Below are positions 17,818 to 62,945 of a DNA stretch of 64,000 bases, in pieces (positions within the stretch are counted from its first letter, which is position 1; every line of letters begins with the position of its first letter). The notes under the pieces are model-generated. The model made no database searches, was not told the origin of the DNA, and worked only from the letters and a program-made list of their open reading frames with translations. The position numbers and the translations under genes were made by a program. Source of the DNA: Gemmatimonadetes bacterium T265 (GTDB taxonomy: Bacteria; Gemmatimonadota; Gemmatimonadetes; Gemmatimonadales; Gemmatimonadaceae); NCBI GenBank assembly GCA_019973575.1, contig BPUI01000001.1:930001-994000 (forward strand). Reading direction: 5' to 3'.

Positions 17818-19512
<1,695 letters not shown>

Positions 19513-19666
19513 GGCTGGCTAACTATAACCCACACTGGCACTTGTGTTCGCGCGCCCCGGGTCGCTCTTGCGCCCGCGCGGCGTCGCGATATTGTCGGCG
19601 CGTCCCGGCGACCCCGGTCCCCGCGCCCCCGGACGCGCGTCTGCCGCGACACGCCCTCACCCGCCC

Positions 19667-32714: not shown

Positions 32715-33326
32715 GTGTTCGGCCTCTCCCCCCTCGAGCTGGTCGCGTCGCTGTTCGGCGCGGTGAGCGTGTGGCTCTCCGCCCGCCAGCACATCTGGAG
32801 CTGGCCCACGGCGATCGTCAACGTCCTGCTCTCGGCCGTGGTCTACTACCGGACCAAGCTGTACTCCGACATGGGGCTGCAGTTCGTCTACTTCGCCCTC
32901 AGCGTCTACGGGTGGTACGAGTGGCGCTACGGCGGCGCGGACAAGACCGAGCTGCCCGTCACGCGCACCCCCCGCCGCCAGGCGCCGCTCCTCGTCGCCC
33001 TCGGCGCGCTCGGCGCCGTCGCCCTCGGCACGCTCTCGGCCCGCTACACCGACGCGGCGCTGCCCTGGGTCGACGGCACCCTCACCGCGGCGAGCCTCGT
33101 CGCCCAGTGGATGATGACGCGCAAGCTGGTCGAGAACTGGGCCGTCTGGATCGCCGTCGACGTCGTCTACGTCCCGATGCTCGCCTACAAGCGGCTGTTC
33201 GCGTTCGCGGTGCTCTACGCGGTGTTCCTCGCCCTCGCCGCGCGCGGCCACGTCGACTGGTGGCGCGACCTGCGCGCCCGCGCCGCGGCGCCCGGCGCCG
33301 GCGCCGCCGACCCCGCGACCGCCTAA
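32715..33326 (+). CDS. pnuC: Nicotinamide riboside transporter PnuC
   Basis: 203-aa inner-membrane facilitator with about seven hydrophobic segments. PnuC landmarks are HIWSWPTAIVNVLLSAVVYY, VYGWYEWRYGG and ENWAVWIAVDVVYVPMLAYK. Uptake is driven by intracellular phosphorylation to nicotinamide mononucleotide, but no kinase (NadR/NrK) is visible here. It follows the transaminase gene by 10 bp and its TAA stop is embedded in GCCTAAC. Convergent with cysK. Confidence 0.92.
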   Translation: MFGLSPLELVASLFGAVSVWLSARQHIWSWPTAIVNVLLSAVVYYRTKLYSDMGLQFVYFALSVYGWYEWRYGGADKTELPVTRTPRRQAPLLVALGALGAVALGTLSARYTDAALPWVDGTLTAASLVAQWMMTRKLVENWAVWIAVDVVYVPMLAYKRLFAFAVLYAVFLALAARGHVDWWRDLRARAAAPGAGAADPATA

Positions 33327-33336
33327 CGCACCGCGG

Positions 33337-34338
33337 TCACGCCGGCGACGGCGCCGGGAAGAGCCCGTCGACGCTCAGGTAGCGCTCGCCCGTGTCGTAG
33401 CAGAAGGTGAGCACCCGGCTCCCCTCGGGCAGCTCGGGCAGCTTCTGCGCGACCGCGGCGAGCGACGCCCCGCTCGACGCCCCGACGAAGATCCCCTCCT
33501 CGCGCGCGCAGCGGCGCGTCATCTCGAACGCGTCCTCCTCGGTCACCTGGATCACGCCGTCGACCACCTCGGGGTGGTAGTTGGCCGGCACGAAGCCCGC
33601 CCCGATCCCCTGCAGCTTGTGCGGGCTCGGGCTCCCGCCGCTCAGCACGGGGCTCTTCGCCGGCTCCACGGCGTAGCTCCGGTGCGCGGGCCAGCGCCGC
33701 TTGAGCACCTCCGAAACCGCCGTGATGTGCCCGCCCGTCCCCACGCCCGTGATCGTCACGTCCACCCCCTCCGGGAAGTCGGCGAGGACCTCCTCCGCCG
33801 TCGTCCGCACGTGCACGTCGACGTTCGCGGGGTTCTCGAACTGCTGCGGCATCCATGCGCCTAACGGACCGGCGCCCGGCGCGCGCGGCGCCTCGGCCCC
33901 GCCGTCGATCGCGCCGGGCACGTCGCCGCCGTTCCGCTCGGCGACCAGCTCGTGCGCCCGCGCGATCGCCCCCTTCATCCCGAGCTCGCGCGGCGTGAGC
34001 TCCAGGTGCGCCCCGTACGCGGCCATCACGCGGCGCCGCTCGAGGCTCATGCTCTCGGGCATGACGAGCGTGAGCCGGTACCCCTTTACGGCCGCGACCA
34101 TCGCGAGCCCGATGCCGGTGTTCCCCGACGTCGGCTCGACGATCACCGTGTCGGGGCCGAGCACCCCGCGCCGCTCGGCGTCCTCGATCATCGCCAGCGC
34201 GATGCGGTCCTTGATGCTCGCGCCCGGGTTGGCGCGCTCCAACTTCATCCACACCTCACGACCGCTGCCCGCAAACAGGCGGTTGAGGCGGACGACGGGG
34301 GTCCGGCCAATCGTGGAGAGGATCGTCGCGTGGCGCAT
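33337..34338 (-). CDS. cysK: Cysteine synthase (O-acetylserine sulfhydrylase)
   Basis: 333-aa fold-type II PLP enzyme forming cysteine from O-acetylserine and sulfide. PLP Lys is in [12 protein letters not shown], the phosphate/substrate loop is [11 protein letters not shown], and [10 protein letters not shown] and VGASSGAS follow. An insertion of about 25 residues after AHELVAERN (Gly/Ala/Pro-rich, containing a CCTAAC motif) interrupts the otherwise conserved middle. It begins at ATG 34338, downstream of cysE on the same strand but separated from it by a 740-bp gap filled with a large inverted repeat. Confidence 0.95.
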
Positions 34339-34402
34339 TGGTTCAGTGGTGAGGGGATTGATAAAGATACAAGGGGAGGGGACAGGGCTGGTTGGCTCGC
34401 GC

Positions 34403-35053
34403 GGGGAGGCCCGCGCCGCCGTACCCGTCGCGCCGTTGTCGTCGCGCGCCGCCGTACCCGTCCGGCCCGTGTCGTCGCGCGGCGGCCGTCGTCGCCCGCC
34501 AGGGGGCGGGACGGGTGGCTCAGAGACCCGGTGGTGCAGGGGCGGGTGGGGCGACGGGGCGGGCGGGCCGTCGGCGGGCGTGTACGTCGGGGGGCGCAGC
34601 GGGACGTGCGAGATGGCGCGTCCGCGAGTAGGGCGATTCGGGGAGGACCGTGCGACAGCCACGAGGCGGGAAGGGCGGCGGGTTGGGCGAAAGGAGCGGG
34701 CGACGGGCACGGCGCGGCGGGTACCACGGGACGGGAACGGCGCCCGCCCGTCTCGTCCCGCCGTGAGGCCCCGGCGAACCGCCCGTTCCGTCTCGTCGTG
34801 CCCGTCGCGCTCCACCCGGGGTGCCTTACCCGCCACGCGCCATCTCGCACGTCCCGCTGCGCCCCCCGACGTACACGCCCGCCGACGGCCCGCCCGCCCC
34901 GTCGCCCCACCCGCCCCTGCACCACCGGGTCTCTGAGCCACCCGTCCCGCCCCCTGGCGGGCGACGACGGCCGCCGCGCGACGACACGGGCCGGACGGGT
35001 ACGGCGGCGCGCGACGACAACGGCGCGACGGGTACGGCGGCGCGGGCCTCCCC
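34403..35053. repeat. Perfect 219-bp inverted repeat with 213-bp spacer
   Basis: Left arm 34403-34621 and right arm 34835-35053 are reverse complements over all 219 bases as far as I can compare them by eye. The spacer is 34622-34834. The arms contain internal direct repeats (GCCGCCGTACCCGTC twice). The whole lies in the 739-bp gap between cysE and cysK, both on the minus strand. A GCCTAAC heptamer (35059) lies just outside the right arm. No transposase frame or target duplication is visible. Confidence 0.93.
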
Positions 35054-35077
35054 AACCTGCCTAACCCCAATCCTCTC

Positions 35078-36058
35078 CTAAATACTGAAATCCTCCACCC
35101 CGTCCCAGGCCGCCCTCGGCGCCACCTGGCTCTGGTGCGTCACCACACTCTTCGGCGGCACGCTCCGCGTCAGCCACACGTTCCCCCCGATCACGCTCCC
35201 CTCCCCCACCACCGTCTCCCCCCCGAGGATGGTGGCGTTCGCGTACACCACCACGTCGTCCCCGAGCGTCGGGTGCCGCTTCACCCGCGCCAGCTGCTTC
35301 GCCACCGCCAGCGCGCCTAACGTCACCCCCTGGTACAGCCGCACCCGGTCCCCCAGCACCGCCGTCTCCCCGATCACCACCCCCGTCCCGTGGTCGATCG
35401 CGAACGCCCGCCCTATGCGCGCCCCCGGGTGGATGTCGATCCCCGTCTCGCGGTGCGCGAACTCCGTCACGAGCCGCGGCACGAGCGGCACCCCGTGCCG
35501 GTAGAGCACGTGCGCGATGCGGTAGCACGCCGTCGCGTAGAACCCGGGGTACGCCGCGATCACCTCGTCCACGCTCGCCGCCGCCGGGTCGCCGTCGTGC
35601 GTCGCCCGGGCGTCCTCGAGCAGCGCGTCGTAGACCGCCGGCAGCTCCGCCGCGGCCGCCGCCTCGAGCGCGTCGGCCGGGCGGCCGAGGATCGCCGCCA
35701 CGGGCTCGAGCACCTCGCGCAGCGCGCGGCGCGCGCGGGCCAGCTCGTCGCCCATCTCGCGCACGTCGCACGGGGCGCCGCACGCGGGGCCCGCGTCCCC
35801 GTCCGGCCGCTCGTTGGCGAGCGGCGGGAAGAGCAGCGCGAGCAGCGCGCGCACCGCGTGCTCGGTGTTGGCGCGGAGCCGCGGCGGGAGCGCGAACGCC
35901 TGCCGCGCCGCCGCGAGGCGCGCGAGGAAGGCGTCGGACAGCGCCGGCGGTGGTGGCGCCGACGCGGGCGCGGCGGACGCCGGCGGTTCCCCCCCCGGCG
36001 GGGGGAGGACGGTCGTGGGCGACGTGGAACCCGGTGCGTAATCGGACACGCCCGACAA
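35078..36058 (-). CDS. cysE: Serine O-acetyltransferase (EpsC/CysE type)
   Basis: 326-aa hexapeptide-repeat acetyltransferase making O-acetylserine for cysteine synthesis. The left-handed beta-helix part contains [57 protein letters not shown] and [12 protein letters not shown]. The N-terminal about 150 residues are a helical extension of the EpsC subfamily, preceded by a Pro/Ala-rich disordered stretch. The C-terminus ends in Ile (DFSI), as in CysE proteins that dock into CysK active sites, so the cysteine synthase complex with the neighbouring enzyme is plausible. Confidence 0.93.
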
Positions 36059-36116
36059 GCTCGCCCGCCCGGACCCGCGCCGCTACGGTCCGCGACCGCT
36101 CCGATGCTCGACCACC

Positions 36117-36137
36117 CCGACCCGCGCCGCGGGTCGG
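36117..36137 (-). terminator. Hairpin downstream of the GGDEF-EAL gene
   Basis: CCGACCCGC (36117-36125) pairs with GCGGGTCGG (36129-36137), a perfect 9-bp stem with a 3-nt loop, 13 bp past the stop of the minus-strand gene ending at 36151. There is no T-run, so intrinsic termination is uncertain. Confidence 0.45.
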
Positions 36138-36150
36138 AGCCCGTCCCTCG

Positions 36151-37938
36151 TCAGGCGGCCAGCGCCGGACGCGGCGGCGGCCCCGCGTCCCGCCCGAGCC
36201 ACGGCCGCGGCAGCCCCGCCTCCGCCCGCAGGACTTCGGCGGCCGCCTCCGCCGCCATCGGCCGGCCGAACAGAAACCCCTGGACCACGTCGCACGCCCG
36301 CTCGGTCAGGTAGGCCATCTGCTCGGGCGTCTCCACCCCCTCCGCGACGACCGCGAGGCCGAGCGAGTGGCCGAGCGCGATGATCGCCTCCGTGATCGCG
36401 CCGCTCTGCCGGTCGGTGACCGCGTCGCGCACGAAGCTCTTGTCGAGCTTGATGCAGTCGATCGGGAACCGCTTGAGGTAGCCGAGCGACGAGTAGCCCG
36501 TGCCGAAGTCGTCGAGCGAGATCGTCACGCCTTCGGCGCGCAGCGCCTGGAGCACCACGGCCGTATGCGCGATGTCGTCCATGAGCAGCGACTCCGTGAC
36601 CTCGAGTTCGAGCAGCGCGGGGTCGACGCCGTGGTCGGCGAGCGCCGCGCGCACCGTGGTCACGAGGTCCGCGTGCGTGAACTGGCGCGCCGAGAGGTTG
36701 ACCGCCACCGAGGTCGCGGGCAGCCCCGCGTCGCCCCACGCCGCGAGCTGCGCGCACGCCGTGCGCAGCACCCACTCGCCGATCGGCACGATGAGCCCCG
36801 TCGACTCGGCGACCGGGATGAACTCCGCGGGCGAGACGAGGCCGCGCTCGGGGTGCCGCCAGCGGAGCAGCGCCTCGAAGCCGCGCACGCGCCCGGTCGC
36901 CACGTCCATCTTGGGCTGGTAGTGCAGGAAGAGCTGGCCGCGGTCGAGGGCGTGGCGCAGGTCGGCCTCGAGCGCCATGCGCAGGTGCAGCCGCGCGTTG
37001 AGGTCGGCCGAGTAGAAGCGGTGCGCGTTGCCGCCCGCGCGCTGCACGTCGTAGCGCGCGGCGGTCGCGTTGCCTAACAGCTCGTCGACGCCGCCCGGGT
37101 CGTTGGGGCAGATCGTGATCCCGACGCTCGCCCCGACCGTCACCTCGCGCCCGAGGACGGCGAACGGGCGCCGCAGCGCGTCCACGACGCGACCCGCCAG
37201 CGCGTCGAGCCCCTCGACCGTCGCGGGCGCCGCCGCGACGATGGCGTACTCGTCGCCGCCGAGTCGCGCCAGCACGTCGCCGTCGCGGACGACGCCCTGG
37301 AGGCGCTGCGCGGCCGCGGCGAGCAGCGCGTCGCCCCCGGCGTTCCCCAGCGACAGGTTCACGGCCTGGAAGCCGTCGAGGTCGAGCACGAGCACGCCCA
37401 CCGGCCGGCCGTCGCGCCCCGACCGCGCGACCGCCTGACGCAGCTGGTCGCGGAACAGCGCTCGGTTGGGCAGCCCCGTCACGCGGTCGTAGGTGGCGGC
37501 GTGCACGACGACCTCGTCGAGCCGCTCGACGACGTGCTGGGCGTCGGCCATGAGCGCGCCCGCCTCGTCGACGTCGGCGAGGTCGAGCGGGAGCGCGGGC
37601 GTCGCGCACCGCGTGAGGTAGTCGCGCAGCGCCGCCGCGGTGAGCGTGACCGGGGCGAGCAGGGCGCCGACGAGCCACGCCGCCCCCGCGCCGCCGGCGA
37701 CGCCGCCGAGGGCGGCCGCGCCAAACGCGGCCGCGGCGCCCGCCCCCGGGGCGTACGCGACGTACGCGCCCACGGCGGCCACCGGCGCCGCAGCGCCGAG
37801 CGCGACCGCGGTCGTCAGCTTCGCGCGGTAGCTCGCGCGCCCAACCACGCCCCCCACCTGCCACGCCCCGCCGCGCCGCACGCCAGGTCGGCGCGCGGCG
37901 CGGGCGAGCGCGGCGTAAGTGCGGAGCGAAGCGGGCAT
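36151..37938 (-). CDS. Membrane GGDEF-EAL protein (c-di-GMP cyclase/phosphodiesterase)
   Basis: 595-aa protein. Residues about 35-105 are hydrophobic (two to three membrane segments). The GGDEF domain (about 155-310) has LGGDEYAIV, a usable active-site variant, and [14 protein letters not shown] contains RDGD at the I-site position. The EAL domain (about 325-570) retains FEALLRW, NLSARQF, the catalytic Glu in [18 protein letters not shown] and KLDKSFV, so phosphodiesterase activity is expected. Which activity dominates cannot be read from sequence. Separate transcript. Confidence 0.93.
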
Positions 37939-62547: not shown

Positions 62548-62564
62548 TCGAACTGTCGGAAGGC

Positions 62565-62937
62565 GGGCCGGTCGGATCGTTCGCGGTGGTGCCGCTGACG
62601 GTTGTGCTGCACCCGGGTCGGGGCCGTCCCGCCGGCCCATGAACGGCCGGGGTCGGTAACGCAGCTGGGGTGGTGCAGGGGATGGTACGGCTGGGGATGG
62701 TGGGGCCGGGGTCTGGGCGAGGGCAGCGCGCCAGTCCCGGCGGGACTGACGACTGGAGACGCGGGCCCCGGCGGACCGAGGCCGTCCCCCGCCCCGGGTG
62801 GACCGACCCCGGGTTCATCATCGCCTGCAGCATCCCCGCTGCCCCACCGACCCCGGCCGTTCACGGACCCGCGCAACGGGCCACCCCGGGTGCAGCACGA
62901 CCGTCAGCGGCACCACCGCGAACCGTACGACCGGCCC
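62565..62937. repeat. Imperfect inverted repeat of about 125-bp arms
   Basis: Left arm about 62565-62690 and right arm about 62812-62937 are imperfect reverse complements about a centre near 62751. The best-matching block (TCGCGGTGGTGCCGCTGACG at left, about 62579-62598) is repeated nearly exactly in the other arm. It fills the 398-bp gap between two convergent genes, so it may also work as a terminator. It resembles the 34.4-35.1 kb element in design but not clearly in sequence. Confidence 0.8.
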
Positions 62938-62945
62938 GCATCCCC

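Follow-up and report, generated by a model that had tools for sequence, protein, structure and literature searches.

Why two perfectly complementary arms of 219 nt lie between cysE and cysK in Gemmatimonadetes bacterium T265 is the question raised by the window analyzed here, a stretch of 64,000 nucleotides (contig BPUI01000001.1, positions 930,001 to 994,000) whose own numbering is used below. The left (A) arm occupies 34403-34621 (+) and the right (B) arm 34835-35053 (-), with 213 nt between them; both the coordinates and the 100% complementarity are exactly those claimed in a preliminary description of this DNA. With a composition of 80% GC, the chance of 219 consecutive matches at one given placement is about 10^-102. 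The spacer (34622-34834) is ORF-less and consists of an A-specific and a B-specific inner half, imperfectly paired; it also folds back and is thus half-palindromic, which turns 34403-35053 into a single quasi-palindrome of 651 bp, 87.6% identical to its own reverse complement over the full length (blastn). As RNA, the whole element forms one long hairpin of -721.6 kcal/mol, compared with -408.7 ± 7.7 kcal/mol for shuffled sequences (z = -40.7). The left arm contains a tandem duplication of a 33-bp unit (34412-34477, +; units 34412-34444 and 34445-34477; repeat families D3/D4), which the repeat search also recovered mirrored in the right arm (34972-35037, -; units 34972-35004 and 35005-35037).

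Upstream of the element lies cysE (35078-36058, -), a serine O-acetyltransferase gene whose best match, TIGR01172 (162 bits), is below the cut-off of 210.65, and downstream cysK (33337-34338, -), a cysteine synthase A gene matching TIGR01139 above the curated cut-off (374.7 bits), which upholds the placement between these two genes given previously. The right end of the element is 24 bp behind the cysE stop and its left end 64 bp before the cysK start, and its orientation, from B (right) to A (left) as set by the ORF-bearing relative described below, is also that of cysE and cysK (-). Five relatives (L224, L225, L227, L229 and L230) share this gene order, and in them cysE and cysK are at most 124 bp apart, measured between aligned ends, whereas 739 bp separate them in the window, 651 of which belong to the element. 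On this comparison the window element is an insertion between cysE and cysK, and the empty site that the preliminary description had proposed to seek in related genomes is represented by these five loci. Rfam returned no match in 33000-36500 up to E = 1, and a known RNA family was accordingly rejected for the element, which lies between two protein genes and not in an rRNA gene. A 577-aa open frame (33337-35070, -) crosses the palindrome into cysK, which automatic annotation may therefore wrongly lengthen at the N-terminus by about 240 aa.

The arms were also proposed to be sought elsewhere, and a search of the genome holding the window (G000; 6-contig assembly) located the family at four further places, all on the 2.99-Mb contig C1. 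Two are full, ORF-less palindromes (C1:1035068-1035631 and C1:1512946-1513428), one is a half only (C1:1934433-1934644) and the fourth carries a gene (L009, C1:2787417-2788331). In L009, flanked by what appear from their ORFs to be nadB and nadA, 177-bp arms of 98% identity enclose an intact ORF (2159-2551 of the locus, minus strand) encoding a 130-aa four-helix-bundle protein, which matched PF05635 ("23S_rRNA_IVP", 89.5 bits) and TIGR02436 (88.2 bits) and has 2gsc as its nearest solved structure. The L009 arms are 85% identical to the window palindrome over 216 bp, and the gene sits at the position matching the window spacer (34622-34834). When the halves of all copies were aligned, two kinds of half, A and B, could be told apart by their inner ends; in L009 the ORF is placed between A and B, whereas the window copy and two further copies have A joined to B with no ORF. 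From these alignments, the best reading of the window copy is that of an ORF-less derivative of a gene-bearing element. Among 99 related genomes only short weak matches to the family were detected, suggesting that this sequence family is private to its lineage within the genomes searched. Elsewhere in G000, a PF05635 gene interrupted by a single in-frame TAG is accompanied by a weak hairpin only (L041, C1:852873-853175) and is possibly a decayed element.

Arm-to-arm identity is 98-100% in the window copy and L009 and 87-92% in the other two full copies, and in the half alignment the similarity of the arms within each full copy equals or exceeds that between copies. The window A arm has variants otherwise restricted to B halves (GGGCCGTCGGCGGGCG, in common with the B half of the C1:1035068 copy, which is 94% identical to the window B half over 267 bp), and its inner end is still of A type; these B-type variants show that the B arm was the source from which the window A arm was copied. 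The 33-bp tandem duplication, absent from the other family copies in the half alignment, is present in both window arms, and together with the B-type variants fits hairpin-templated copying or conversion. One arm would template the other within the hairpin, by template switching or conversion, which would keep the arms identical over a perfect 219 bp and carry small tandem duplications into both. The preliminary description took perfect identity to imply recent origin, gene conversion or strong constraint; arm-to-arm copying probably accounts for it, and to explain the perfect arms one would need neither an assembly artefact nor an element that as a whole arose very recently. Its suggestion of a foldback transposable element gains from the other G000 copies, the empty cysE-cysK site in relatives and the arm-to-arm homogenization.

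Beyond this family, PF05635 genes were present in 79 of the 99 genomes searched within the order, with up to 14 per genome. Among the 100 loci of relatives with full flanks, 86 had the PF05635 gene bracketed by an inverted repeat of at least 30 bits, compared with 2.8% at shifted positions and 0% with shuffled flanks; at 50 bits or more, 45 loci were bracketed and none in the controls. Scanning 84,980 species genomes for PF05635 relatives yielded 80 loci from many phyla; 59 of these had full flanks, and at the 30-bit threshold 59% of them were bracketed, compared with 1.3% and 1.7% in the controls. The design of a hairpin plus a PF05635 gene is found across bacteria and archaea. Most of the arm sequence consists of 7-bp units repeated in tandem and mirrored between the arms: same-base frequencies at lags of 7, 14, 21 and 28 were 0.44, 0.41, 0.38 and 0.36 in the relatives (flanks, approximately 0.26-0.32) and 0.58, 0.55, 0.50 and 0.45 in the loci from many phyla (against approximately 0.25). 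The unit varies from element to element, the extreme being a locus from Terriglobia (L270) with perfect 155-bp arms of AGTTCTC repeats. A second genome (G004) also has ORF-less offspring: its palindromes at C5:370039-370245, 457318-457508 and 651782-652147 lack an ORF and match arms of elements that carry the gene. A census of 400 kb per genome counted 32 inverted repeats of at least 50 bits in G000 and 15 in G004, against 1 and 0 in Markov controls.

Evidence of mobility was sought by comparing the joined flanks of 13 elements with four sister genomes. One element (L085 of G059) had a clean empty site in the sister genome G097, with 22 bp instead of 635 bp between the flanks, and no target-site duplication was evident at this single clean site. 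A second candidate, the site of L096 of G004 in G036, was rejected, as it holds a different ORF-less hairpin; this hairpin (L195, G036 C7, ~19390-19607) is made of CACAGATG-like repeats, and one intergenic site hosts different elements. Many elements were found at the same locus across genera, with both flanks homologous. Protein identity at shared loci had a median of 63% (28 comparable pairs; the remaining 11 of 39 gave no protein identity, and frame choice may err where both strands are open), compared with 39% for other pairs. The repeat units at shared loci such as L076/L084 and L103/L139/L146 are often quite different, each still self-complementary, and those of L121 and L126 differ by one base throughout (CGGGAGA and CGGGAAA). 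The arms thus seem to turn over in concert while the protein persists, whole arms changing sequence yet staying complementary, which would make them a clean natural record of palindrome correction. The dN/dS values of PF05635 proteins in ten pairs ranged from approximately 0 (with saturated dS) to 0.21 and indicate that the four-helix-bundle protein is under purifying selection. To our knowledge, no catalytic activity has been assigned to this protein; the reading of its gene as a defence gene was rejected, PADLOC having returned no match for it.

The reading that we favor, with a probability of roughly 70%, is that the window feature is a non-autonomous copy of a mobile hairpin element, inserted behind the cysE stop, whose complete form is an inverted repeat around a PF05635/TIGR02436 gene. 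Such elements are best seen as selfish and free-standing kin of rRNA intervening sequences (IVS), accompanied by hairpin copies that are non-autonomous. The element would move, or be copied, as a hairpin with the help of the four-helix-bundle protein, which could also assist ORF-less copies in trans and which, possibly aided by enzymes of the host, is the candidate left for mobility. Insertion right behind stop codons would limit harm to the host, and the hairpin RNA at the window locus would be a strong RNase III substrate that may uncouple cysK from cysE. Against a mobile element stands the presence of the gene in only one of the five G000 family places, so that the ORF-less form could be older and the gene an acquisition; likewise, the many elements that keep their locus from genus to genus could reflect slow inheritance, vertical for the most part, no less than mobility. 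The lack of a known catalytic activity of the protein, the absence of an evident target-site duplication at the one clean empty site and the G000 arms, which are no clean heptamer arrays, also count against it.

Among the alternatives, host-maintained 3'-end structures, namely very large bidirectional terminators or RNase III processing sites that recombination has spread and a regulatory use has preserved, have the best standing, although we consider them unlikely; the four-helix bundle would then be an RNA- or DNA-binding partner and not a mobility factor. Their position speaks for such a role: as judged with a rough gene caller, elements lie directly behind stop codons (median distance of 6 bp) and avoid divergent promoters (40 co-directional, 25 convergent and 5 divergent gene pairs). 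The occupation of the same locus across genera with arms still paired, and the purifying selection on the protein, point the same way. Presence between relatives is, however, patchy, paralogous copies are many per genome, repeats are element-specific and the window copy has no terminator-like T run.

Among known systems, rRNA IVS come close to these elements. In the IVS of Coxiella burnetii, tandem GACAGAT heptamers precede an S23p ORF and a 28-bp terminal stem is cut by RNase III, and the origin and function of rRNA IVS have been called unclear (PMC4990558); rRNA insertions with IVP ORFs have been described in CPR bacteria as well (PMC11270868). The gene-bearing elements described here likewise have an inverted-repeat stem around a PF05635-type ORF, and heptamers are part of the elements as they are in Coxiella (PMC4990558). 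The window copy retains a terminal inverted repeat able to form a stem, as in IVS, and lacks the S23p/PF05635 ORF found inside many IVS and in its L009 relative. Whereas rRNA IVS lie within 23S rRNA genes and are excised by RNase III, the present elements are free-standing between protein genes, numerous per genome and accompanied by ORF-less copies. No description of such a free-standing intergenic element was found in the literature searched, which omits most subscription journals.

A second link is to the GGGAATC heptamers of Xanthomonas, described as G-quadruplex repeats with 70-75 close inverted pairs per genome (PMC4692102) in a text that mentions neither S23 nor "four helix". These are also 7-bp intergenic tandem repeats, often in close inverted pairs, and at three Xanthomonas loci (L295, L300 and L305) a PF05635 gene between apparent accB and accC is bracketed by GGGAATC heptamers at one end and by the complementary heptamers at the other, which would tie the known repeats to the PF05635 family. 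In contrast, the G000 arms are long, hardly heptameric and form no clean heptamer arrays.

This departure from the heptameric pattern favors another alternative, that the long palindromes of G000 are an independent MITE-like family and that the four-helix-bundle gene landed in the L009 copy by chance. Like MITEs, the window element is short and ORF-less, with terminal inverted repeats and several copies. G000 moreover contains further dispersed palindromes that are unrelated in sequence. Chance capture is nonetheless improbable, given that PF05635 genes are mostly within inverted repeats in dozens of genomes and that the ORF-less palindromes of G004 also share arms with ORF-bearing elements. 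As with MITEs and foldback transposons, short dispersed ORF-less palindromes are here related to longer ORF-bearing elements; unlike in those, the ORF-bearing relative, which has its arms in common with the window copy, encodes a four-helix bundle and no known transposase, and the one clean empty site had no evident target-site duplication. REPIN/RAYT systems similarly multiply intergenic palindromes within one genome, but the window element is far longer and the Y1 transposase family (PF01797) was not found in G000 by profile search (genome 97.6% complete). PF05635 resembles Avd, the accessory protein of diversity-generating retroelements (PMC10053308) and a member of the same four-helix-bundle superfamily (PHROG 3206, E 2.8e-6; PMC10053308), although the reverse transcriptase (PF00078) of such retroelements was also not found in G000 by profile search. 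Mobilization by a reverse transcriptase or a REP-type (Y1) transposase was thus rejected for this genome, and with both families also not found in G004, G006 and G019, which have 8-11 PF05635 genes each, neither kind of mobilization would be needed.

An invertible switch of the kind preferred in the preliminary description, in which RecA or a recombinase would flip the 213-bp spacer and a promoter within it would thereby switch cysK, is very improbable: long identical arms around a spacer could recombine, but no promoter-like site was detected in 34300-35150 (judged by the sigma-70 consensus only), the spacer is half-palindromic and recurs at intergenic sites elsewhere in G000, inspection of the ORFs revealed no recombinase gene in the element and no inverted form of the site was encountered among assembled sequences, so the switch and its promoter were rejected. 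A fold-back chimera introduced by assembly, of which perfect long inverted repeats are a typical form, can be set aside with similar confidence, since other loci repeat the arms and both the A-specific and the B-specific inner half in the same register (for the inner halves, in the L007 and L008 copies of the half alignment) on a 2.99-Mb contig of an assembly of only six.

Whether the same design extends to all these systems seems to us an evenly balanced matter. PF05635/TIGR02436 proteins would then define widespread mobile hairpin elements with mirrored heptamer arms and ORF-less offspring, of which rRNA IVS and intergenic heptamers are special cases and whose mobility involves neither a reverse transcriptase nor a known transposase. 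Three loose ends would meet here, namely the origin of rRNA IVS, the function of the S23p family and the over-representation of intergenic heptamers (PMC4990558, PMC4692102), and the hairpin-plus-gene design may explain what the very common PF05635 genes are, along with the 7-base repeats that surround them. Should the elements be mobile, they would owe this to a small helical bundle, Avd-related and with no known active site, in genomes where a reverse transcriptase was not found.

The window also holds a second dispersed, ORF-less quasi-palindrome (62558-62944), self-complementary over 62563-62939 and with outer arms (62558-62617 and 62885-62944) of 90% identity, which takes up the space separating the stop codons of a PAP2-like and an epimerase-like gene, a convergent pair. 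G000 has four other near-full copies of it together with a partial copy and several fragments. It is not homologous to the 34403-35053 element as a whole and is related to it in kind. In G004, a different inverted-repeat family with arms of ~140 bp, gaps of 160-225 bp and no identified ORF occurs at C5:426766-427260, 436834-437283 and 502634-503129. Another G000 family consists of palindromes of ~80-130 bp with ends like GTCATCCTGAGCGCAGCGAAGGATC, located at C1:1046792, 1085031, 1102769, 1276204, 1337521, 1362594 and 1365772 (L155-L171).
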